A stretch of DNA of 64,000 nucleotides from Muribaculaceae bacterium (GTDB taxonomy: Bacteria > Bacteroidota > Bacteroidia > Bacteroidales > Muribaculaceae): NCBI GenBank assembly GCA_017409345.1, contig JAFQSX010000032.1, positions 1 through 64,000 of the forward strand. Reading direction: 5' to 3'. Made by a program: the position numbers and the translations under genes. The notes beneath the pieces were generated by a model that had not been told where the DNA came from, made no database searches, and saw only the letters and a list, made by a program, of their open reading frames with translations. Numbering within the stretch: position 1 is the stretch's first letter; each line of letters begins with the position of its first letter. Positions 2,651-28,948 of the stretch are shown here, one piece after another.

Positions 2651-3130
2651 TTATTTAATTGTGTTGATATCAATTACTTTTGGGTTTTGAGCAGCATGTG
2701 GGTGCTCTGGTCCGTTATACACGTGAAGGTTGCCAATGATGCGACGACCGAGACGGTTTTTAGGAAGCATACCTTTCATAACTTGGAGATACAATGGGTG
2801 ATATCCAGGTTTGATGTGCTTGTTGTAAGATTTCTTAATAAGAATCTCAGGAGTTGCTTCGCGTTGACCACCGGGGTAACCTGTGTAACGAAGGTAAGTT
2901 TTGTCAGTCATCTTTTTGCCTGTAAGAACGATTTTTTCGGCATTGATGATGATTACATTGTCACCACATTCTACGTTAGGAGAATATGTGGGTTTGTGCT
3001 TGCCACGAAGAATTTTCGCAACTTTAGCGCAAAGACGACCAAGAACTTGGTCAGTTGCATCGATAACGACCCATTCGCGTTCTACGCTTTGAGCGTTAGG
3101 TGATACGGTTTTGTAACTTAAAGTATCCAC
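2651..3130 (-). CDS. rplM: 50S ribosomal protein L13
   Basis: L13 of the large subunit, an early assembly protein. At 159 residues it is slightly longer than the E. coli form (142). Family blocks visible are WVVIDATDQVLGRLCAKVAKILRGK, GDNVIIINAEKI, YTGYPGG and GMLPKNRLGR. It is the first gene of the operon, with a good promoter about 110 nt upstream (3243-3274). Confidence 0.97.
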   Translation of the reverse strand: MDTLSYKTVSPNAQSVEREWVVIDATDQVLGRLCAKVAKILRGKHKPTYSPNVECGDNVIIINAEKIVLTGKKMTDKTYLRYTGYPGGQREATPEILIKKSYNKHIKPGYHPLYLQVMKGMLPKNRLGRRIIGNLHVYNGPEHPHAAQNPKVIDINTIK

Positions 3131-3242
3131 GTTTAAATGTTTGATTAATAGTTAAATAAATTGACCGCAAAAATGCCGATACTCGGCCAGAAGTATCGTC
3201 ATATTGACATGTCGGGGTTATTAATTGGACATAATCGGACTG

Positions 3243-3387: not shown

Positions 3388-4023
3388 TTAATAACTCTTC
3401 TCTTCTACGATGTGATAATTGACCATTCTCCAATTATTAGCATCGCCAATAAATGAATATTCGAGAATATTTGAGTTGATAAAAGATATTCTTGCCATTT
3501 TGCCAATGATTAGTTTGTTGATGTTGCAGTTGTTTAATTCAAAGTCCCCCTCTATAATTGAAAGAGAATCAAGAGTCATCTCAGATATAGTTACGCAATT
3601 ATTAGAGTAGTCGTGTATGTGTTTTACGGAATCAGCCGATATATGTATGCATGTTCGGGCAATGTCGCTATAATTAAAATCAGAGTCATAAGGGATGCTG
3701 ATTTTGATTTTTAGTGAGTCTCCTATAGTTTTGAATGAGACGTATTTTTTTATTTTTTTGGCAATGTGTATTCCAGGAGTATTTTTGTTATAGGTTGGTG
3801 TTAAAACTATTTTGGGGCGATAGTATGAGTCAGAAGAGTCGGATATCGCAATGTGGGTGGTAGTTGGAGGGATAGGATTAAAAGTGTTATCTAATACAAT
3901 AGTGTCCATTGTATTATAATTGCCGGTGTAGTGTTCTTCTTTGTGGTTAATGCCAAAGATGACAATGGATATGCACCATAGAAGGGTTGTGGTGAAAATT
4001 AATATTTTTGTTGTAGTTTTCAT
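3388..4023 (-). CDS. Hypothetical membrane-anchored protein of the GntR/ABC operon
   Basis: Unrecognised 211-residue protein. The start at 4023 is chosen because it overlaps the GntR stop by ATGA; the open frame runs 9 codons further upstream inside gntR. Residues about 4-24 form one hydrophobic segment (signal anchor). The rest is predicted to be outside the membrane, and its second half looks like a short beta-solenoid (repeated short hydrophobic strands such as VTISEMTLDSLSIIEGDFELN), somewhat like DUF2807 adhesin-type proteins. Translational coupling to the regulator suggests a job in the same envelope response; that is inference. Confidence 0.8.
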   Translation of the reverse strand: MKTTTKILIFTTTLLWCISIVIFGINHKEEHYTGNYNTMDTIVLDNTFNPIPPTTTHIAISDSSDSYYRPKIVLTPTYNKNTPGIHIAKKIKKYVSFKTIGDSLKIKISIPYDSDFNYSDIARTCIHISADSVKHIHDYSNNCVTISEMTLDSLSIIEGDFELNNCNINKLIIGKMARISFINSNILEYSFIGDANNWRMVNYHIVEEKSY

Positions 4024-6348: not shown

Positions 6349-7314
6349 TTATTCTTCTTTGATTAGATTGAATTTTGTTGAAATCTCTTTTTGCTCAATT
6401 GCTTGGCGAAGGTTGAATCGTTTCTTTTGAGTAATGTATCCAGATTTTTCGCAAATAACTTCGATTTGAACATTTCCGGAGTTGTTAAATGTGAGGCCTT
6501 TGATGTCAAATGTTTCGGTCGTTTCATAAGGGGTTGTTCCTACATAATTTTGATTTGTGTTTTTTACATCAGAAGTAGAAGATACAACACGAGTATAAAC
6601 ATCGGCGCCTCTTGGAGATGATTCAATAAACCAGCGAATAACAGTGCTTTCAAGTGCAGTGTTTCCTTCTCCCGTTACTTGTTTGTTTTTCTCAAGGGCA
6701 GGATTGTCTGCTTTTTTTAAGAAGAATGCGATTCTGTCCCAGTCAATATCTTCAAGGGCTGTTGCAAAAGCATTGTTAATTGCTTGAGATGCCAAAGCTG
6801 AATTTTTGCTGGAACCACTTACATTTGCTCTTCCTGCTGCAGTAACATTTGGGTAAACTTGTTTCCGATTGTTGTCGTGAACTTCAATGCCAAGTTGAAC
6901 TAATCCCGACCAACCAATTCCTGAAAGATAACTAATATTATATTCTTTAATAGTTATAGATAAAAAGTAGTCGGTGGCAATATCTGCGTCAAGGTTAAAT
7001 CCCATGTTGCGCATATATCTACGAGTGCTTTCTGATACAAATGAAGATACATCTGGATATATCGTTGTTCTAGGCGTAGATGTTACGCTTGCGTCGTAGA
7101 TGTTTAATATTTTATTACTAGCACGAGCATCTGTTACTTTTAGTCTGATTCCATAGTCTAAGTTGACAAATCTATTGGGCTCGCCATCTTTTGCGAGATT
7201 TAATCTTATGTCAAGGGTGGTGGGTTGTTGTACGATGACTTTCTTTGAACCACCGCAAGATTGTATTGATAAGGCAATGCAGATTGCTAGTATGTATTTT
7301 ATTATTGTTCTCAT
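6349..7314 (-). CDS. Lipoprotein with C-terminal PEGA-like domain
   Basis: A 321-residue lipoprotein: N-terminal signal with lipobox IQSC (Cys about residue 20). The middle region (IRLKVTDARASNKILNIYD to about residue 200) resembles YajG-like outer membrane lipoproteins. The last 90 residues look like a PEGA-type beta domain (SSPRGADVYTRV, YVGTTPYE, CEKSGYITQKKRFNL). It lies 5 nt after a second lipoprotein gene and is probably cotranscribed. No function is known to me; assembly or anchoring in the cell envelope is inference. Confidence 0.85.
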   Translation of the reverse strand: MRTIIKYILAICIALSIQSCGGSKKVIVQQPTTLDIRLNLAKDGEPNRFVNLDYGIRLKVTDARASNKILNIYDASVTSTPRTTIYPDVSSFVSESTRRYMRNMGFNLDADIATDYFLSITIKEYNISYLSGIGWSGLVQLGIEVHDNNRKQVYPNVTAAGRANVSGSSKNSALASQAINNAFATALEDIDWDRIAFFLKKADNPALEKNKQVTGEGNTALESTVIRWFIESSPRGADVYTRVVSSTSDVKNTNQNYVGTTPYETTETFDIKGLTFNNSGNVQIEVICEKSGYITQKKRFNLRQAIEQKEISTKFNLIKEE

Positions 7315-7319
7315 ATTAA

Positions 7320-7856
7320 TTATTTAGAAGTTTTAAGTTTTACTAATTTTGCAGTGACTGTTGTTTTGAAAATAATCTCATCTCCTATCTGTTCTGCCTT
7401 AGTGGAAATGATAGGCTCGATTAATCCGTCAGCTCCATATTGTTGAGCGGTGTTTATTGCACGATATGAAGCGAGTCTGATTGCTAACTCTTCGGGATTG
7501 AATATCTCAAAATTAGTTCGATTATAAGTGTTATTAAGATATCCAAGACGAACTACTCCACTATATTTTTTAAGAGTTAATCCAAAGCCGGGATCTTCGT
7601 AGTATAGGGAAAATTCACCAGTGCCTTCATGAATTTCTCCTTTCTTTTTTTTGATAATGGCTTTAATTACTGCATCACTACTAATTGTATTTAGGATTTG
7701 ATAGTCTCCGTTTTCTAAGTTTAGTTCGTTAAGAGATACAGAATTTACAGTGTTAATGGCATTAGGAACAATATAAGTTTTTCTAGCGGAGCCACATGAT
7801 GAAATTGCAAAAGCCGCAATTGCTATAATAATGCTATAAAAGAATGATTTAGTCAT
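7320..7856 (-). CDS. Small lipoprotein, function unknown
   Basis: A 178-residue lipoprotein: signal segment with lipobox ISSC (Cys about residue 21), then an alpha/beta region ending in TAQQYGADGLIEPIISTKAEQIGDEIIFKTTVTAKLVKL. The motif A..YGADGLIEP is common in small Bacteroidetes lipoproteins that contain a dodecin/YbjQ-like fold; I do not assign a family. It is the upstream gene of the lipoprotein pair. The 5-prime region contains a structured RNA on the same strand (7943-8097) and no clear promoter between that RNA and the start codon, so the RNA may lie in its leader. Confidence 0.8.
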   Translation of the reverse strand: MTKSFFYSIIIAIAAFAISSCGSARKTYIVPNAINTVNSVSLNELNLENGDYQILNTISSDAVIKAIIKKKKGEIHEGTGEFSLYYEDPGFGLTLKKYSGVVRLGYLNNTYNRTNFEIFNPEELAIRLASYRAINTAQQYGADGLIEPIISTKAEQIGDEIIFKTTVTAKLVKLKTSK

Positions 7857-7942
7857 AGTGTTTACGTTTATTGTTTTAGTTTATTGGCCATTAGGCCTAT
7901 TATTTGTTGTAAATTAAGGTCCGGTTTTTTGATGTGTAGACA

Positions 7943-8097
7943 ATAAAAAAACGTGGACCTAATCTTTATTTGTTTCTGAGGTATCGCCAAACACCTTACT
8001 CCCAAATAAGTAAAAGCCCACGTCATATGACGCGAGCATTAACTTCTACTCTTGGGAGTTTCTTCTAATTGGCGATTTTCAGAAACAAGAATAAAGC
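7943..8097 (-). ncRNA. Structured RNA copy 1 (6S-like candidate or leader)
   Basis: On the minus strand the RNA folds into one long irregular rod. Stems, in plus coordinates, are: 8080-8096 with 7964-7978 (closing), 8069-8076 with 7982-7989, 8052-8059 with 7998-8005, 8043-8050 with 8009-8016, a one-sided UUAAU bulge (8038-8042), and an apical stem GCTCGCGTC/GACGTGGGC. The 3-prime end is GTCCACG plus seven U (about 7944-7957). The same arrangement occurs at 28677-28830 with compensatory base changes, which argues for a conserved RNA. Size and rod shape with internal loops recall 6S RNA; I cannot confirm the family. A weak promoter (TTTG 8171-8174, N20, TTTTTTTG) lies upstream. Confidence 0.65.
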
Positions 8098-8207
8098 TAA
8101 CGCTTTTTTATTAATATGTCTTTATTGGTTTATTTACATAGGCAAAAAAATGATTATTGTTACTTTTGTGCAAATTTTATAATTTTTTTTATAAGATGCA
8201 AATTTTT

Positions 8208-18426: not shown

Positions 18427-21400
18427 TTATTTTTTGATCAATGGGTATGTAGCAACACCTTGGTCGGTTGTCACCTTGAGGAGGTAAAGACCGGCAGGGA
18501 GTTTTTCTACATTGATAACTTTTGCTTGACCGCTGATGCAAGATGTTGTTTCGTTATAAACTTCAGCACCATTTGCACCATAGATGCAGTAGTTTGCAGC
18601 ATCGCAATTGAAGTCGCAAATCACGTTGAGAGCAGTAACCACTGGGTTAGGGAATACGCTCACTTGTGAGTTGATTGAGATGTTTTCAACACCATCAAAT
18701 TCAGTTACTTCAAGTTCGAATGCGTAAACAGCTTGAGCGCCTGATGGGTCGGTAGCTGTGATGCGAACGATTACCACACCTACTTCGTTGGCAACGAAGA
18801 TTGCGCTTTCGTCTGATTTGAATGCAGTAACGATATCGTCGGGTGATACTGTCATTTCGAATGTCAACGCATCGCCATCGGGATCTTCAAACATGTCGGC
18901 AAACGACATGATGTCAGATGTAGTTGTTGCCATCATTACCATATAGTCAGTAGTAGCAACCACGCGAGGTGCACGGTTAACATGTTCAACGAGGTAACGA
19001 GCCGAAGCTTGTGATTCGTTGTTGCAAGAGTCGGTAGCAGTGAGTGTCAATGCGTAGTCGCCAGCTGAACCAAATTCAGGAGTGATGTCGGCTACAACTT
19101 TCACACCGGCAACAGCTCCCTTAACGGTTGCAGTGTTTTCGCTGATTTCGATAACACCGTTTTCGTCGAGTGAAGTGACGGCCGAGAGTTTAGCGATATT
19201 ACCATTGTCGTCAAGACGCAATGTGAAGTCATCGCTTTCAGGTTCGTTAACTGTAAACTCGATTTGAGTCAATGCGCCTTCTTTAGCATAAGTGATGCTT
19301 GATGGAGCAGTGATTGCAGGAGCTGCGTTCTTGTCGAGGAAGATTGGGAAGTTAACGATAGGAGATTCCGGATCGTTGCTCTTAATCACAAGCACAGCTT
19401 TATTTTCTTTATCCATAGGAGCATCGGCTGCGCTGAGGCGGAACTTCATGTTGAGAGATTCACCTGGAGCGATTACGCCAACTTTGTCGCTTTCGGGGTT
19501 AAGCATTTTCACCCAAGCGGCACCTTCTTTGGTTTCAAGACAAGTCATGATGTAACCGAGAGATCCATATTGGTCTTCAAACATTGTAGCAACGTCAAAC
19601 CATCCGTAACCTTCTACAAATCCCATGAAGCGGTTAGATTCCACACCTTCTTCTTTATAAGAAAGGTAAGCAGGATATTCAACACCAACAGGATAAGTGA
19701 TCACAACGTAGAATTCTTGACCCGGAGCCATGTAAACGGCGCGGTCGAGAGGAATAACGATGAAGTTGGCAGTTTCCATTTCGTCGATATGGAATGTGCC
19801 TTTACCGAGCACTGTAGTGCCTTCAACATTGTTGCCCTTAATGATTTCAACTTTGATGTCAACATCTTTGAGACCGGGTAGATAAGTAGCGGTGTAGATG
19901 TGAGAAATGTTGAAGCCGGTTTCAGGAGCTACATAGTAAGTAGCAGCTTTGTATTCGCCAAATGTGTTGCCGGTGCCATATTGGTAAGATGTGTTGTTGC
20001 CGGTCGCAGTTGGGTAGTAAAGAGCTCTATTGTAAGAGAATGTTTCGGAACTAGGAGCATCAAGAACCGATACTTCGGCATTTTCAAATGCTTTAACAGG
20101 AACTTTGATGTTTTGACGAAGAGTCGAATCGGCTTGAGCTGAGAGAGTGCGAGCCATAACAGCAGGAGCAATGCCACCACCGAGGTCTTCTTCTTCAACG
20201 ACTTCACCTTCGCCTGTTGGGTCGAGACGGAGTTCGTAAGTGAGGCGATATTCGCCGGCGTTGTTAATCACAACTGAGTCTTCGCCAACATAGTCGTCGG
20301 TAACGTTCACAGCGCGAATTTCTTCTTTGTCAAGAGCCAACTTAGGAGCAGGTGTGACAATGAAGCGAATATTTACTACCGCTGAGTCGTTATCGTTGTA
20401 GTAGAATGTCAAAGGTACATCGTATGTGCCGGGTTGTGAAGCCATGTCATACATCATAGGAACAGATACACCTTGAGGAGTAGAACCTACTGTGATAGGA
20501 GTATTGTCGTAGTATTGTGTCCAGATACGGTTGCCTGTAGGTTCGCCGGTCATCCAGTCGGTTTCTTCGGCTTCATAATAAGTCATGAATAATGGATACC
20601 ATACCATTTCACCGGTAAACCAATCTTCTTGTTCGTAGCCGGGACCACCATTTTTGATATTGGTGATTACGAATGGAGCAGTACCTTCGTTAACAACGTT
20701 GAAGTATGCTTCATAGTTAGCACCCATTTGGGTAACAGGACCTGCTGATGGATCATCGAAGTGACCTATTACGCGTTCAACAATGATAGAGTCAGTAGGG
20801 AATACCGGTTTCGCTTCACCTGTAATAGTGAGGTTGATAGGAATTTGAATTTTTTCCTTACCTGGAACATTAGACGTGATGTCGATGTTGCTGCTATATT
20901 GACCTGCCATGCGAGTGGTATTTACGTCAATATCAATATCGCGACTATTGTTTGGCTCAATAGCGTTTTCAACAACAGGATAGAATTGAACAGCGTTGTT
21001 GAATGTTACATAACGTTCAGGAAGGCGGATGCCCACTGAGCCGTCTTCGTTAGAAAGACCTGCAAGACCAAAGACTCCATAGATGATCGCGTAGTCGCCA
21101 TAACCTTTGTATTGGAACTTGAATGAACCATCTTTCTTCATGATGAGTTGATAACATACACCCATGTTCATAGAGTTACCATATTCCATCCACGAAACGA
21201 TAACTTCGTTTTCGGTCATATAGTGATATGTTCCTGCAGTTTTGCTTTGGTCGCAAGTGTGCATACCCCAATATGGAGCGATGATGTTGGTGTAAACTGT
21301 ACCGCCGGGGAATTCAGCAGGAGGTTCAGGCCAAATCTTGTCATCATTGCGTTTTGTGAATGATACGAAACCGGTGTTGTAGATATACATTGTATCGTAT

Positions 21401-24400
21401 TTCTTACCATAGTATGGGAATTCAAATGGCAATTTCACTTCTACATAGTCATTATTGTTGTAGTAAGTGAAGTTGTTTTGTTCGCCAAGACCGGTTGTCT
21501 CAATATCAACCCAATTGAAAGTAACATTCTTGTCATCAACAGATGCACTATAAGAATAAGCAACGTTAGCACCATCGGTGATGTCATTGAATGAGAAGTA
21601 TTCGGGGTTAGGAGTGATAGAGTAACGAAGGACTTCGTTTCCAATGTTTGCGATATTAAGTGGTTTTTCTAATTTAGTACCACTCAATAGGGTAGAATCA
21701 ATTGAAGTGAAACTCAAGTTGATGTCAGGACAACCTATAACTTCACCATTAACTGCTACAGCCAAAGTATCGGCATCGGAATATACGAAGATACTATCTT
21801 TAATCGCTCCTTCTTGTTCAGTAGGAAGAATAATGATAACATCTTTTGATATGCCGGCAGGAATTTTGAATTCATTAGCAGAATTGATGCCAATAGAATC
21901 AATATAAACCAAGTGGTTATATGTGCTAACTTTGTTTACAGTTAAAGTGTCGTTACCGGTGTTCTTGATTGTCAAAGGAAGACGAGCATCGGAAGTGCGG
22001 AACACTTTGCCGAAGTTGATTTCATTTTGAACAATTGCAGCACCAGGAGCGAGACTAGAACCTTCAATGTTGGCATTAAATCGAATGTAAGAAGTGCTGT
22101 TGTATGGGTCATTGCTTGACACAATGAGGTTGTTGAATGTAGCACCTGCATACATTGACTCATTTGCCTTAAGAGTAGCGACAATATCGATTGATTCACC
22201 GGGGTTAACAATTCCATAAGGATTTGTTAGTGCTGTGATGAAGTTTGGCTTAGGAGCGATGAATTTCACTGCTGTTTGATTGGTGAATTGAGTATATACA
22301 TCACCGGCAGGATCATCATTGTTGCCCCAATAGTCAGCGATATCGGCCGAGGTTACTGTCAATGGGTCGGCTCCGTAAGTATCGTGGATACCGCAATAGA
22401 GAGTAGAACCATCTTGGAAGAGGCTCATCGACATTGGGTCGTAACTGTCATAGAATATTTCAATGTCGCCATTTGTAGAAAGGGCGATGCGGAATGAAAT
22501 AGGAGTGTATTCTTGGTCATAAACCAACGCTAATACGTTAGAGTAGTTAACCACGAATTTGCCGTTTTGTACGCCATACTCAATCTTTGAGTTAGGTCCT
22601 AATGCTAATTGACGACCATAAGCCGAGATGTAAGGCACGCCCACAAGGCGTTCAGATGTTTCGGTCAATGGTGAGAAGTAAGCATATTCGCCTACTTTGA
22701 ACGCGATACCACCATAGCTTGTGATATAAGCATAGTCAAATGTTTCGCCAAAGAATGGGAACGCAAATCCAAGAGGAATTTGTTTTGACAAATAGGTGTT
22801 ATCATCAAACGAAGATGTGATGTCTGTACCACCGATAAGAGCAGGATTGCCATCGTAAGCAAAGTCGGTAGCTTCATTGAGGTTAGTAGCGGTTACATAG
22901 CCAAAACGGTGAGCGGCTTTGCCTTGGTTTTCAAGCTTGCGGTCAGAGAATTTAGGGAATACATATTCCAAAGGATAGTTGCCTTCGTTTTTGATTGAGA
23001 ATGTTTTAGTGATTTCGGCAGAGTCGATATTGAGTGCGCCCACTTCGATAGTGTCGGGGTCAATAGCGATGCGAGCAGGATCGGTTGCAACACCTGTAAC
23101 AGTGATTTTGAATTCAGAGTTGTCAGAGTGTTTAAACACGATGTTGCCTGTGTGGCTACCGGCTGCTTTAGGCGCAAACTTCACATCAAATGTTTTGTAT
23201 GTGCGAGCAGGGAAACCACCGTTTACATAAGTAGGACCTTGGAAATGCTCAGAAGTAGAGCTGATGCGGTTGCCGCTCAATGAACCATAGTAACCAAATG
23301 GGCCATAACCTTCGTTGAATACTTCAACAGTGATAGTTTTTTCTTCACCCACGAGGAGGTTGCCGAAGTTAACCACTTTAGCCGGCGACATTACAGGAGC
23401 GTTGCCGCTAACAGTCATTGTAACAGGAATAACAGTGGTGTTCTTTTCGCTTTCGTTGGTGTTGAAGTGGAGGTTAAATTTATATGTACCGTTTACAACA
23501 GGTTGCCCGTCATTTGTAACGATAACGGCTTGAGTTTCGCCATGTTTTACTTGACCTTCATTAGGAGTGATTGTGATAATCTTACTCCAGTCGGGGTTAA
23601 GACTCATTGCTGTGATTGCCCAACCGGCTTTACTGCTGATTGATTCGTATTTAGAACCTTTGAGCGCGTCGGCGAGAGTAACCCAAGTTTTACCCATGTC
23701 GTTACTCATATAAGAGTAAGCGGCATAGTTATTGTCGGTAACAGTGGCAAGACCAAGAGGATAATCTTCTTGGTTTGCTGGGAAGTGAACAACAATCCAG
23801 AATGATTCACCGGGAGCGAAATAGATTTGTTCATCTAATTTCATTGCTCCGTCAGAGTAGAAGTAAGGTGTAAACTCTTGAAGGAGTGTTGAAGTTGAGA
23901 TGTTGCTACCTTTGTAAACTTGGAATGTCGGGTTCTTTCCATAAGTGCTTGTTACTTTGATGTTGGTGAGGTTGAACCCTTCGGGATAAGTTTCCGCGTC
24001 AACATAGAACCATTGAGCCATAGAGTTGGTCAATGTTTTGTCTTCGTCACCAATTGAAGCATAGAGCTCATTGAAATATTTAAATTCTTTAGGATAGTCG
24101 CTTGCGATGAAGTCGGTTGTTTTAAATACTGCATTAGCTGCGTAAGGAGTGGCGCCAAGTTTGCTGTTGTACTTAACGATAGCTCCCGGAGAGGCTTTTT
24201 CAATCGAACGAGTAGCAGCGGTTGCTTGAGTTGTGTGGATAAATGCATTCCATTTCAAAAGACCTTCGTCGTCATTGCCAATGTTGAAGGTTGCATTGCC
24301 TTGTGCATCTGGTTTAACTGTAAATGACAATGAAGATTTGCTTACTGTCATCTTTGGTCCGGCATTTGTAGTTGCTACAACAACAGGAGAAAGTGCCGAT

Positions 24401-26202
24401 GCATCACCCCAACGGTTTACTGCCTTCATTGCAAGGTAGTAAGTAGTCAATGGTTGAAGCCCTTCCAACACGTAAGTTGTAGTTTCGCCCGAAGAAAGGA
24501 ATTTTGTATCGATGTTTACCTTGTTGATAGTGCTCAAATCAGTAGTTGCATCAAATGCTTCAGTGCTGAAATAAAGAGCGTGATAATTCACGTTATTGTC
24601 GTTTGAAGCAGGGATAACCCATTCGAGTGTGATATTATCTTGAGCAGGAAGTGCAGTGAATGTGTCAACCGGTTCGGGAGCGACACCGCTACCGCTCATG
24701 TTGAGGGCTTTTGCAGCATCGATATAACCTGCACCATGAAGACCTTCTTTCCCTTCGTTGTAAGCATAGATGTCATTTACCGAAGTGACGATTTGTTGAC
24801 GAACAGTTTCAGCCGGTAGGGTAGAGTTGCCATGTTGTGAAACAACAAGGGCAGCAATACCGGTAACGTGAGGTGTAGCCATTGATGTACCTTCATTGAA
24901 ACCATATTGGTTACCGGGAAGAGTACTTAACACACCATGAGCTTCGCCATAGTCGAGGAGACCACCGGGAGCTACGATGTCAACCCATTCGCCATAGTTT
25001 GAATAAGTGGCGATAGTGAAATCATCGGTCATAGAACCTACTGCAACAACTTTTTCGTAGCATGCAGGATACATATTGCCTGTAGCACCATCGTTACCTG
25101 TTGCGAAGAACATTACACCACCGCTCACGTTGTTACCACGGTTCATTGCGATGAAGTAGTCGATAGCATCGAGCACATCTTGTTCGTAGTAGTCGGGTGT
25201 GGCCCAACCCCATGAACAGTTGGCGATGTTGGCGCCATTATTGGCTGCATAAACGATAGCAGCGGCAAAGTCGCCTTGGCCTGAACCTGAACGAGAATCA
25301 AATACTTGACAAGAAAGCATCTTAACACCGCTATTGGCAAAACCGTTACCACCGGCTACACCACACACCCCGATGCCATTGTTGTTGACAGCGGCGATTG
25401 TTCCGGCTACGTGAGTACCATGTGCATGAGGATAGATGTCTTTTGAGTTGGTACAGAAGTTCCAACCATAAATGTCGTCGATATATCCGTTGCCATCATC
25501 ATCTTGACCGGCTACACCATTTAACTCGGCTTGGTTGAGATAAACGTTGGCAGCAAGGTCTTCGTGAGTGTAGTCAATACCACCATCGATTACTGCAACA
25601 AGAGTGTTGCTGTTACCGGTAGTGATTTCCCATGCTTTGAAGAGGTTGATGTCGGCACCTACTTTGCTGGTTCCTAATACCCCTGTGTTGTTGTAGTGCC
25701 ATTGACTGCTCAAACGAGGGTCGTTGAATGGCATAGATGAAGGACGCACTTCATCAGAAAGTGGTTCAGCTACTTTATAAGTGCCGTTTTCTTTCAATAC
25801 CATAGGCACTTTGCATGTAGCCACTTGCACACCTGCTGTTTGGCTAAAGATGCGTTGTGCGTCTTTGGGATTGATAGTTTCGTCAAATGTCACTTCATAC
25901 CAACGGTCAAGACCGAATTGTGCCATTTGATCTTCAAACTTTGCACTATAAGGGAATACCCTTTTGAAACTCATGGCCTTTACTTGACGAGCCGAAGCAT
26001 CTAGTGCGTGAACACCTGTGCTAAGCACTCCATTGGTTGCGGTGATAGTCTTATTGCCTACCGATTTAGCAACCTCGGTTTGCAATTTCACGCGCACCAC
26101 GCCTTTTTTAGGCGTAAGGCTTTGAGCTTGTGCAATCACAACGCTGCTCATTGCGATAACGAGCAACATCAAAAATCGTGAAAAGATTTTTTGCATAAGC
26201 AT
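18427..26202 (-). CDS. Giant secreted subtilisin-like protease with T9SS sorting domain
   Basis: A 2591-residue S8 serine protease. Signal peptide at 1-27, propeptide-like region to about 165, catalytic domain about 185-495 with triad D206 (VIDGGID), H261 (HGTHVAG) and S440 (GTSMATPH), and oxyanion N370. A fibronectin-III domain follows at about 515-615. The rest is a long array of Ig-like domains of the choice-of-anchor/HYDIN type with several repeated DYAYITSYGGIAF- and TMYIYNTGFVSF-like segments, then cadherin-like domains. The end (VFPNPV to ATYPLIKK) is a type IX sorting domain. Likely anchored to or released from the cell surface. A -7 box TAACTTTG (26286-26293) is the likely promoter element. 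Confidence 0.93.
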   Translation of the reverse strand: MLMQKIFSRFLMLLVIAMSSVVIAQAQSLTPKKGVVRVKLQTEVAKSVGNKTITATNGVLSTGVHALDASARQVKAMSFKRVFPYSAKFEDQMAQFGLDRWYEVTFDETINPKDAQRIFSQTAGVQVATCKVPMVLKENGTYKVAEPLSDEVRPSSMPFNDPRLSSQWHYNNTGVLGTSKVGADINLFKAWEITTGNSNTLVAVIDGGIDYTHEDLAANVYLNQAELNGVAGQDDDGNGYIDDIYGWNFCTNSKDIYPHAHGTHVAGTIAAVNNNGIGVCGVAGGNGFANSGVKMLSCQVFDSRSGSGQGDFAAAIVYAANNGANIANCSWGWATPDYYEQDVLDAIDYFIAMNRGNNVSGGVMFFATGNDGATGNMYPACYEKVVAVGSMTDDFTIATYSNYGEWVDIVAPGGLLDYGEAHGVLSTLPGNQYGFNEGTSMATPHVTGIAALVVSQHGNSTLPAETVRQQIVTSVNDIYAYNEGKEGLHGAGYIDAAKALNMSGSGVAPEPVDTFTALPAQDNITLEWVIPASNDNNVNYHALYFSTEAFDATTDLSTINKVNIDTKFLSSGETTTYVLEGLQPLTTYYLAMKAVNRWGDASALSPVVVATTNAGPKMTVSKSSLSFTVKPDAQGNATFNIGNDDEGLLKWNAFIHTTQATAATRSIEKASPGAIVKYNSKLGATPYAANAVFKTTDFIASDYPKEFKYFNELYASIGDEDKTLTNSMAQWFYVDAETYPEGFNLTNIKVTSTYGKNPTFQVYKGSNISTSTLLQEFTPYFYSDGAMKLDEQIYFAPGESFWIVVHFPANQEDYPLGLATVTDNNYAAYSYMSNDMGKTWVTLADALKGSKYESISSKAGWAITAMSLNPDWSKIITITPNEGQVKHGETQAVIVTNDGQPVVNGTYKFNLHFNTNESEKNTTVIPVTMTVSGNAPVMSPAKVVNFGNLLVGEEKTITVEVFNEGYGPFGYYGSLSGNRISSTSEHFQGPTYVNGGFPARTYKTFDVKFAPKAAGSHTGNIVFKHSDNSEFKITVTGVATDPARIAIDPDTIEVGALNIDSAEITKTFSIKNEGNYPLEYVFPKFSDRKLENQGKAAHRFGYVTATNLNEATDFAYDGNPALIGGTDITSSFDDNTYLSKQIPLGFAFPFFGETFDYAYITSYGGIAFKVGEYAYFSPLTETSERLVGVPYISAYGRQLALGPNSKIEYGVQNGKFVVNYSNVLALVYDQEYTPISFRIALSTNGDIEIFYDSYDPMSMSLFQDGSTLYCGIHDTYGADPLTVTSADIADYWGNNDDPAGDVYTQFTNQTAVKFIAPKPNFITALTNPYGIVNPGESIDIVATLKANESMYAGATFNNLIVSSNDPYNSTSYIRFNANIEGSSLAPGAAIVQNEINFGKVFRTSDARLPLTIKNTGNDTLTVNKVSTYNHLVYIDSIGINSANEFKIPAGISKDVIIILPTEQEGAIKDSIFVYSDADTLAVAVNGEVIGCPDINLSFTSIDSTLLSGTKLEKPLNIANIGNEVLRYSITPNPEYFSFNDITDGANVAYSYSASVDDKNVTFNWVDIETTGLGEQNNFTYYNNNDYVEVKLPFEFPYYGKKYDTMYIYNTGFVSFTKRNDDKIWPEPPAEFPGGTVYTNIIAPYWGMHTCDQSKTAGTYHYMTENEVIVSWMEYGNSMNMGVCYQLIMKKDGSFKFQYKGYGDYAIIYGVFGLAGLSNEDGSVGIRLPERYVTFNNAVQFYPVVENAIEPNNSRDIDIDVNTTRMAGQYSSNIDITSNVPGKEKIQIPINLTITGEAKPVFPTDSIIVERVIGHFDDPSAGPVTQMGANYEAYFNVVNEGTAPFVITNIKNGGPGYEQEDWFTGEMVWYPLFMTYYEAEETDWMTGEPTGNRIWTQYYDNTPITVGSTPQGVSVPMMYDMASQPGTYDVPLTFYYNDNDSAVVNIRFIVTPAPKLALDKEEIRAVNVTDDYVGEDSVVINNAGEYRLTYELRLDPTGEGEVVEEEDLGGGIAPAVMARTLSAQADSTLRQNIKVPVKAFENAEVSVLDAPSSETFSYNRALYYPTATGNNTSYQYGTGNTFGEYKAATYYVAPETGFNISHIYTATYLPGLKDVDIKVEIIKGNNVEGTTVLGKGTFHIDEMETANFIVIPLDRAVYMAPGQEFYVVITYPVGVEYPAYLSYKEEGVESNRFMGFVEGYGWFDVATMFEDQYGSLGYIMTCLETKEGAAWVKMLNPESDKVGVIAPGESLNMKFRLSAADAPMDKENKAVLVIKSNDPESPIVNFPIFLDKNAAPAITAPSSITYAKEGALTQIEFTVNEPESDDFTLRLDDNGNIAKLSAVTSLDENGVIEISENTATVKGAVAGVKVVADITPEFGSAGDYALTLTATDSCNNESQASARYLVEHVNRAPRVVATTDYMVMMATTTSDIMSFADMFEDPDGDALTFEMTVSPDDIVTAFKSDESAIFVANEVGVVIVRITATDPSGAQAVYAFELEVTEFDGVENISINSQVSVFPNPVVTALNVICDFNCDAANYCIYGANGAEVYNETTSCISGQAKVINVEKLPAGLYLLKVTTDQGVATYPLIKK

Positions 26203-27595: not shown

Positions 27596-28702
27596 GTGTG
27601 CCACTATACCACGGTTGATGATGTTGAGTGGGTAGATGCTAAATCAATAAAGGCTCATCAAGAGTTGTGCACAGTGTTTGATAGCATCTTCTCGAAAACT
27701 GCCGATAATAAGGATTATTATGAGCAAGCACGTTTTATACGCAACACTCTTGAGATTGATTCGCTCGTTCCCGGCACACGATATATGTATCGAATCGATA
27801 ACGATACTATTGTACGATATTTCACTACGGCACCAAGTGATAATAATTGGTCGGCTGCGATAATCTCTGACTTCCATGCCTATGCGCCGCTCCCGGCACG
27901 CACTCAGTCGGCAATGAATATGCTAGCGATGCTTGAACAACGCAATGGAGCATTTGATATGGTATTGCATGTGGGTGATATTATTGCATGGGGTGGCAGT
28001 TACTCTTTTTGGCGCGACCTTTATGCAAACGAACCGTTCAAAAAATATGTGTGGGCAGGTGTTAATGGCAATCACGATAATATGAGTCGCGGTTATGCTC
28101 ATCAATCAAATCAGTTCTTCCGTAATACCAATAATAATCCTCTGAATGGATATGAGGGTGAAATAGGAGTGTGCTATCATTTCACTTATGGCAACACGCT
28201 ATTCATTATGCTCAACAATGAGTCGATGCGTAGTGATGAAGGGTTGCTCAAGGCGCAACAATGGGTGCGCGATGTTATCGCTCAAAATCCCCACCGATTT
28301 ATTGTTGTAATGGAACATTATCAATGGTTCTTTGGCGAATCGGGTAAAACGTCGCAATATGACCGTTGGCGCCAACTCTTTGATGAATGTGGTGTAGATT
28401 TGGCCATTGCGGCCAATAATCACATCTATGCACGCACAAATGCTCTTTTCGGAGGAGTGGAAACCGACGGAAGCAAGGGAACGGTGTATATTCAAACACC
28501 ATCTTCCGACAATGAACGTGGGCAAGAACTGAAAGAGTGGACCGAGAACCTCGATATAATTAAAAGTCGATGGAGCGAGGGGGCAAAGACTGTAGGCGCA
28601 CTACTGCTAAAAGCCACTGACAACAACCTAACCATAACACTCTATGATCGCGATGGAAATACTATTGATGAGGTGATTTCAGAAATTTCGGCAAAAAATT
28701 AG
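27596..28702 (+). CDS. Metallophosphoesterase (purple-acid-phosphatase-like), catalytic part
   Basis: Calcineurin-type phosphoesterase domain about residues 85-290 of the open frame: D-x-H in ISDFHAY, GD in VLHVGDII, GNHD in VNGNHDN, His in VVMEHYQWF, and the last motif as ANNHIYAR. Compared with the usual GHxH, the first His is Asn, so one metal ligand may be missing. The N-terminal part with CHYTTVDDVEWVDA resembles the fibronectin-like domain of purple acid phosphatases. The first in-frame start is GTG at 27596, but the natural start is probably the ATG at 27441 in another frame, so as written the product lacks its signal peptide. The 3-prime end overlaps a structured RNA. Confidence 0.8.
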   Translation: MCHYTTVDDVEWVDAKSIKAHQELCTVFDSIFSKTADNKDYYEQARFIRNTLEIDSLVPGTRYMYRIDNDTIVRYFTTAPSDNNWSAAIISDFHAYAPLPARTQSAMNMLAMLEQRNGAFDMVLHVGDIIAWGGSYSFWRDLYANEPFKKYVWAGVNGNHDNMSRGYAHQSNQFFRNTNNNPLNGYEGEIGVCYHFTYGNTLFIMLNNESMRSDEGLLKAQQWVRDVIAQNPHRFIVVMEHYQWFFGESGKTSQYDRWRQLFDECGVDLAIAANNHIYARTNALFGGVETDGSKGTVYIQTPSSDNERGQELKEWTENLDIIKSRWSEGAKTVGALLLKATDNNLTITLYDRDGNTIDEVISEISAKN

Positions 28703-28830
28703 AAGCATTCAAGAGTGGAAGTTAATGCTCACGGTATATCCGTGGGCTTTTACTCGTATATGAATGCATGGTGTTTGCCGATACCTCTGAGACGTAGACG
28801 AAGTTTTAGTCCACGTTTTTTATTTGTCTA
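28677..28830 (+). ncRNA. Structured RNA copy 2 (6S-like candidate)
   Basis: Same architecture as the minus-strand RNA at 7943-8097. Stems pair 28677-28683 with 28786-28792, 28688-28695 with 28774-28781, 28705-28711 with 28761-28767, 28714-28720 with 28748-28754; a one-sided UUAAU bulge (28722-28726); apical stem GCTCACGG/CCGTGGGC with loop UAUAU; and 3-prime GTCCACG followed by six U (28809-28821). Shared blocks include GAAGTTAATGCTC, GTGGGCTTTTACT, CGATACCTC and TCCACGTTTTTT. The 5-prime stem lies inside the last nine codons of the phosphatase gene. TM2 downstream has its own -7 box, so this RNA is probably independent. Confidence 0.65.
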
Positions 28831-28948
28831 TCTCTAAACTTTTGGACTAATCTCAAATGGACAAAATGGATAAAACGATAACGATAATTTTATGCTACTT
28901 TTGTCAAGAAAACTTAAATTAATTATTAATTAAAAAAAAATTAAAATT

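Follow-up and report, generated by a model that had tools for sequence, protein, structure and literature searches.

Two segments of the window, a stretch of 64,000 nt from a Muribaculaceae bacterium (GenBank assembly GCA_017409345.1, contig JAFQSX010000032.1), probably represent a new class of Bacteroidota 5′ leader RNA, most likely a transcription attenuator. They belong to a large and apparently undescribed family of structured mRNA leaders present across the phylum; no prior description of the element was found in the titles and abstract openings of the open-licence literature. The leader position is well supported by the sequences compared here; switching, and the signal that would drive it, we infer from the same material. 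To our knowledge, few regulatory RNA classes are known for the Bacteroidota, which dominate the human and ruminant gut.

Fold and distribution of the family

The segments at 7943–8097 (minus strand, copy A) and 28677–28830 (plus strand, copy B) were alignable, with a mean column identity of 81%, and both folded into long rods (−56.5 kcal/mol, z −8.2, and −52.0 kcal/mol, z −6.5, respectively; 0 of 200 dinucleotide shuffles were as low in either case) with a one-sided bulge, UUAAU, after AAGU. The common blocks, the rod fold and the bulge described in the initial annotation were confirmed by this alignment and by folding against shuffles. The segments were real, but the extent given for them was too short (Table 1).

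A third copy was found in the source genome by BLAST, and a search of the genus gave matches in 10 of 12 genomes. In the covariance model built on 14 genus copies (R1), 94.4% of the cells were paired and 20 of the 49 pairs differed on both sides, a count reached in none of 500 shuffles. In the model built on 51 diverse copies (R2), 92.5% of the cells were paired, 48 of the 49 pairs showed double-sided changes, and the covariation score was 0.701, compared with 0.238 for shuffled and 0.069–0.113 for slid partners; the R2 alignment was fitted to the R1 structure and is biased towards it, the double changes being judged too numerous to come from that fitting. Selection on RNA structure, which had been proposed from the two copies, is very strongly supported by these double changes in both sets.

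From 5′ to 3′, the element consisted of a promoter box, a 5′ cap, the rod (helices P1–P6), a pre-U segment with a U-tract, the P7 complement and the gene. P1 was formed by an A-tract and GCG paired with CGC and the U-tract, and all the rod helices (P1, P2, P3, P4, P5 and the apical P6) covaried in the 51 copies. The sequence of P3 differed between subfamilies while its complementarity was kept (−12.4 kcal/mol within elements, −5.9 kcal/mol across them, z −18.6). The pre-U segment, e.g. AGUCCACG, ran directly into the U-tract (in 49 of 51 copies, at least 5 of the following 8 nt were U) and was complemented by a downstream GGACU (P7), forming a pseudoknot with P1 (z −9.5, 98 copies). The pairing tests of P3, P7 and the T-helix described below used 98 of 99 rows, one antisense row being dropped. 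A kissing-loop form of P3, between hairpins GAAA..UUUC and GGY..RCC, was also considered. Of the two hairpins, the local GGY..RCC stem around the P3 3′ strand was the one counted, and it was weakly supported (double changes in 4 of 144 cells; 11 of 500 shuffles attained its covariation score). P3 is accordingly described here as a nested helix.

The source genome contained 17 copies at E ≤ 1e-6 (R2), a lower bound because the assembly is about 75% complete; the idea of a “double set”, i.e. a merely two-copy element, was discarded on this count. Of the genomes sampled, 293 of 397 in the host family (R1, E ≤ 0.001), 167 of 393 in the order, representing 104 of its 206 genera (R2, E ≤ 1e-5), and 37 of 296 in the phylum (R2, E ≤ 1e-6) had at least one match. 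The 37 comprised the source genome itself, one other genome of its order, 29 from elsewhere in its class and 6 from outside that class. Copy numbers per genome are lower bounds in these scans because 6 candidates (family and order) or 8 candidates (phylum) were scored in each genome. Muribaculaceae, Prevotellaceae, Bacteroides, Phocaeicola, Paraprevotella, Alistipes, Hoylesella and Paludibacteraceae were among the matches listed in a pattern scan of named genomes. The covariance model and genome search suggested in the initial annotation thus gave a family with strong covariation, widespread in the host family and order, and the Rfam comparison suggested with it gave no Rfam 15 family match for the element at the gathering score. 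In five large fragmented genomes of the order (G412, G568, G465, G442 and G408), many copies lay close to contig ends, at distances of a few hundred bases or less, the placement expected of repeated DNA.

Copy A was complete, with promoter box, AUG-UAA, rod, U-tract, P7 and two putative lipoprotein genes (Table 1), neither of which had a Pfam match at E ≤ 0.01. Copy B kept the rod and lacked both promoter and mini-ORF, as well as the greater part of the P1 5′ strand; its 5′ end overlapped the end of an ORF at 27596–28702, metallophosphatase-like by eye. Since its 5′ third is missing, copy B is a truncated copy, and it is probably a relic or relies on transcription from upstream; the loss of promoter and mini-ORF, together with the promoter-like box of the TM2 gene itself, means that it may be a relic. 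In the sister genomes G004 and G005, the amidase-like and ABC-ATPase-like neighbours were about 180 and 210 nt apart, compared with about 2040 nt in the source genome (G000), and the site was empty, with neither the copy A leader nor the lipoprotein genes; the whole copy A transcription unit was therefore gained or lost. Elsewhere in the window, a 2591-aa ORF (18427–26202, minus strand) was subtilisin-like near its start and had an apparent C-terminal sorting domain (by eye).

Table 1. Positions in the window of copies A and B, their parts and the genes behind them.
Feature	Position	Strand	Basis
Copy A, full extent (mini-ORF to P7 strand)	8143 to 7917	−	sequence and model match
Copy A, TTTG near −33	8199–8202	−	sequence reading
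Copy A, −7 promoter box of Bacteroidota type, TATAAAATTTG	8171–8181	−	sequence reading
Copy A, start-stop mini-ORF GCCTATGTAA	8134–8143 (AUG UAA at 8134–8139)	−	motif
Copy A, structured core	7933–8121	−	covariance-model match, 191.6 bits (R1), 186.4 bits (R2)
Copy A, P1 5′ strand (A-tract, GCGUU), partner of the U-tract	8099–8112	−	covariation model
Copy A, 5′ arm of apical helix P6 (putative antiterminator arm)	8031–8037	−	
Copy A, P6/P5 3′ arm, common to the rod and the terminator-like T-helix	8007–8024	−	
Copy A, AGGTCCACG then TTTTTTTATTG: T-helix 3′ arm and U-tract, also P1 3′ strand	7941–7960	−	
Copy A, U-tract	7941–7952	−	
Copy A, P7 3′ strand GGACCT, partner AGGTCC at 7955–7960 (pseudoknot with P1)	7917–7922	−	
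Gene 1 behind copy A, 178-aa putative lipoprotein (by eye)	7320–7856	−	
Gene 2 behind copy A, 321-aa putative lipoprotein (by eye)	6349–7314	−	
Copy B, full extent	28643–28850	+	
Copy B, structured core, 5′ third degenerate	28643–28834	+	138.2 bits (R1, from 28655), 118.2 bits (R2)
Copy B, P6 3′ arm / T-helix 5′ arm CCGTGGGCT	28740–28748	+	
Copy B, pre-U segment TTAGTCCACG and U-tract	28806–28826	+	
Copy B, P7 3′ strand GGACTAA	28844–28850	+	
TAnnTTTG-like box of the TM2 gene, behind copy B	28896–28903	+	
Gene behind copy B, TM2-domain protein, 70 aa	28949–29161	+	

Leader position, 5′ cap and downstream genes

The genomic setting was analysed in a set of 131 copies: the genus hits, 30 loci from the family scan, the loci of the source genome and 80 regions chosen by hand among the family-scan matches listed. 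Rows near contig ends were mostly excluded and related genomes were included; permutation counts overstate independence because the copies are related. A second set of at least 120 copies came from the named genomes and overlapped the first in part (e.g. L259 and L068).

Of 129 copies with a downstream ORF, 124 had the nearest one on the same strand (opposite in L044, L057, L064, L065 and L135; no ORF in L032 and L119), and the upstream ORFs were divided 66:63 (none in L058 and L099). In the second set, the downstream ORF was on the same strand in 102 of 107 copies (5 opposite), and the upstream ORFs were skewed to the same strand (72:36). The start of the same-strand downstream ORF lay within 100 nt in 94 of 124 cases; ORFs were called by a longest-ORF rule (at least 60 aa), by which short genes can be missed (e.g. 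L141). In three leaders (L062, L127 and L141) the AUG of the gene directly followed the U-tract; the proteins were related (69–77 aa) and helix-turn-helix-like by eye, that of L062 having no Pfam match, and these leaders may represent a branch of the family that has been inherited vertically.

A TAnnTTYG box was present within 100 nt upstream in 111 of 130 copies, compared with 22 of 381 background 100-nt windows further upstream, and between the leader and the start codon in only 9 of 87. The Bacteroidota promoter consensus is reported as TAnnTTTG / TTTG (PMC7366714). In the second set, 116 copies had enough upstream DNA and 79 of these had the box.

In front of the fold, 77 of 131 copies had a mini-ORF motif, GCC[T/A]AUG-like plus a stop, as defined after inspection of the data. 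The stop followed after 0 codons in 30 copies, 1 in 40, 2 in 6 and later in one, i.e. within three codons in 76 of 77, compared with 27 of 326 ATGs inside the elements; in the second set, all 49 motifs behind a promoter box had a stop within three codons. The distance from the A of the AUG to the conserved RGACAT was 16–24 nt in 55 of the 68 copies measured (mode 20). The edge of an E. coli ribosome stalled at a start codon is reported at +16 to +18 (PMC12121999), and RGACAT begins at or just past this edge, a geometry suggesting that a ribosome on the start-stop codon is part of the device. The GCYWATG motif was absent from 54 of 131 copies. Many of these had a 5′ hairpin instead (30 of 46 tested had z < −1 against base-composition shuffles), and in others no clear one was seen. 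With the motif missing from so many copies, the mini-ORF cannot be the only sensor.

Downstream proteins were signal-peptide-like in 78 of 113 cases, compared with 32 of 129 upstream ORFs, by a simple hydrophobicity rule that is crude and in which upstream ORFs cut by locus ends may lower the upstream share. For the domain searches, 100 of the 113 downstream proteins were used and 13, mostly long, were omitted. Sixty-four Pfam families matched some of the 100 proteins and none matched more than five; the best 25 of the 64 included T9SS sorting domains, WG repeats, BspA-type LRR and TerB and, once each, DNA methylase, DarT, GmrSD, Mrr, TOTE-type helicase, SPFH and TM2. Each of the best 25 of 104 PADLOC families matched one protein. 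No coherent regulon or common pathway was found by Pfam among the 100 proteins, and a metabolite regulon is unlikely given the diversity of the Pfam families and the single-protein PADLOC matches.

Defence-like domains were seen behind five leaders: DarT (L130), GmrSD (L124), Mrr (L090), a TOTE-type helicase (L143) and a cytosine methylase (L052). In three genus genomes (L006/L020, L007/L028 and L009) the leader lay behind a recA-like gene (by eye) and the next gene differed each time. Locus L191 had two leaders back to back (2929–3114, minus strand, and 3657–3847, plus strand), each before its own gene. In L015, a mutS-like 5′ fragment (about 1033–1311) preceded the leader and gene and a mutS-like start (about 2771–3155) followed them (by eye), as if the unit had been inserted with duplication.

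The 293 family genomes with a match, the copy number of the source genome and the secreted, lipoprotein-like and defence-like genes behind the leaders mean that this leader may rank with the most widely distributed classes of cis-regulatory RNA in the phylum. Control of surface and accessory genes after transcription start in Bacteroidota is thereby opened to direct test, as is the question of whether start-stop ORFs serve as bacterial sensors.

Competing helices and possible modes of action

Two alternative partners are available to the 3′ arm of P6/P5: its own 5′ arm, which gives the rod, and the segment before the U-tract, which gives the T-helix. The T-helix pairing was stronger within elements than across them (−18.2 vs. 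−14.4 kcal/mol, z −15.5, 0 of 2000 permutations, 98 copies). In its columns, 92.7% of the cells were paired. Double changes occurred in 7 of 9 pairs, a number that 3 of 500 shuffles attained, and the covariation score was 0.329, compared with 0.253 for the shuffles, none of which scored as high. The helices P1/P5/P6 and the T-helix are mutually exclusive, and both were kept by covariation. The T-helix with the U-tract has the form of an intrinsic terminator, and the rod with P1 that of an antiterminator. Forced folds had mean energies of −56.1 kcal/mol in the rod state and −53.8 kcal/mol in the T state, and for the element alone the rod was favoured by a median of 6.0 kcal/mol (range −28.3 to +18.4). 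That the T-helix actually stops the polymerase is suggested by this form, and because its loop is long and the rod is energetically favoured, termination may be weak.

In the proposed mechanism, transcription would begin upstream and the 5′ cap would form before the rod folds. If the emerging pre-U segment stays out of the rod, P1, and later P7, would capture the U-tract and transcription would continue; in this state of rod and P1 (with the P7 pseudoknot), RNA polymerase would read into the gene. If the pre-U segment instead invades the apical helix, the resulting hairpin and the U-tract would act as an intrinsic terminator. Occupancy of the 5′ cap, by a ribosome that is held at the start-stop codon and abuts P1, may help to choose the state, a step proposed with less confidence. 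More tentatively, the ribosome parked on the 1–3-codon ORF might itself be the sensor, making the leader a global translation-status switch for the Bacteroidota secretome and the accessory (including defence) genome. If so, the state of translation initiation or termination would set polymerase read-through into secreted and accessory genes.

Four other readings were weighed, and the likelihoods given for them are not mutually exclusive. The leader might mainly stabilise the mRNA or recruit ribosomes, without switching, the T-helix being a leaky terminator or an mRNA-processing signal. In favour of this, the 5′ cap is a ribosome site or, in many copies, a hairpin, both classic protectors of 5′ ends, and the rod has the lower energy; the reading is nevertheless unlikely, as the T-helix was kept by covariation though incompatible with the apical helix. 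The promoter box, the terminator-like helix with its U-tract and the rod shape would suit a free-standing sRNA family, 6S-like or otherwise trans-acting, with a promoter and a terminator of its own and an incidental downstream gene. This is improbable in view of the same-strand downstream genes in both sets, the few promoter boxes between leader and gene, the three leaders in which the AUG abuts the U-tract, the lack of an Rfam 6S match and the diversity of the 17 copies in the source genome. One form of attenuator would be a ligand-binding riboswitch, in which the rod is the aptamer for a metabolite common to the diverse genes. The large conserved core with invariant unpaired positions and the resemblance of the T-helix and U-tract to an expression platform are consistent with this, but the downstream genes (WG repeats, LRR, DNA methylase, DarT, GmrSD, Mrr, TM2) have no common pathway and P3 changes in sequence between subfamilies while keeping its pairing, which makes a riboswitch improbable.

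A structure of mobile elements or recombination sites, such as an attC-like single-stranded DNA hairpin or a cassette end carrying cargo genes, would explain the many copies with varied cargo, the empty site in G004 and G005 compared with G000 and the many hits near contig ends (by eye). It would also accommodate the tandem leader-gene duplications of L188 (copies 1.9 kb apart) and L190 (1.1 kb apart), with similar genes behind each copy, and the 209-aa serine-recombinase-like ORF (by eye) found on the opposite strand behind lipoprotein-like cargo in L027, L029 and L047. On the other hand, G-U pairs were kept on one strand (U-G in 44 of 51 copies at one apical pair), a promoter box and mini-ORF lay upstream, and the AUG stood at the U-tract in three leaders. 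No exact pattern match was seen in viral contigs, copy A gave no blastn match in plasmid or phage records, and neither a target duplication nor a terminal repeat was seen by eye at the empty site. An integron attC or other mobile site was rejected as the main reading for the absence of a duplication at the empty site and of plasmid, phage or viral matches for the queries used, and is very improbable. Attenuation by the competing helices is the preferred reading.

Comparison with known systems

In transcriptional riboswitches and T-box leaders, mutually exclusive helices and a U-tract come after a conserved core. The same arrangement was seen here, but the genes behind the present leaders have no common pathway.

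6S RNA occurs in few copies and is transcribed as an independent RNA. Its models, 6S (RF00013) and 6S-Flavo (RF01685), describe a rod of comparable size, and the size and shape of the two segments had been taken to recall it, another Bacteroidales RNA family being the fallback. Neither segment matched 6S at the gathering score or at E ≤ 5 (Rfam 15), RF00013 gave no match in the source genome at E ≤ 10, and RF01685 gave none over the cut-off in the 12 genus genomes, a single weaker match (E 0.025) lying in G003. At the gathering score, Rfam 15 gave tRNA matches only, both in the window and in 20 diverse loci; at E ≤ 5, the two segments gave 7 and 1 matches, all far below the family cut-offs and none of them 6S. 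Unlike 6S, the element has many copies, a fixed 5′ leader position before same-strand genes and a terminator-like helix competing with the rod; together with the model tests, these features rule out 6S RNA and leave the fallback as the correct branch. A 6S RNA with pRNAs has been reported for B. thetaiotaomicron (PMC7366714).

A computational survey of the human microbiome reported 3161 candidate motifs (PMC8040213), including palindromic, terminator-containing candidates, mostly from Bacteroidetes (e.g. HMP2_4205, 132 bp, near TPR genes). The motif lists of this work and of PMC2864571 (e.g. Bacteroides-2 and GUCCY-hairpin) could include fragments of the element.

The nearest working analogues would be translation-coupled leader-ORF attenuators such as tetQ, a Bacteroides attenuator reported to control translation (PMC5418344), and toiL (toiL/topAI) of E. 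coli, reported to respond to ribosomes stalled at the toiL start codon (PMC12121999). As in these leaders, a short ORF precedes alternative structures placed before the downstream gene. Unlike tetQ and toiL, each of which serves one operon, a single fold recurs here before many unrelated genes, the ORF is reduced to a start codon and 0–2 further codons, and the platform resembles an intrinsic terminator.
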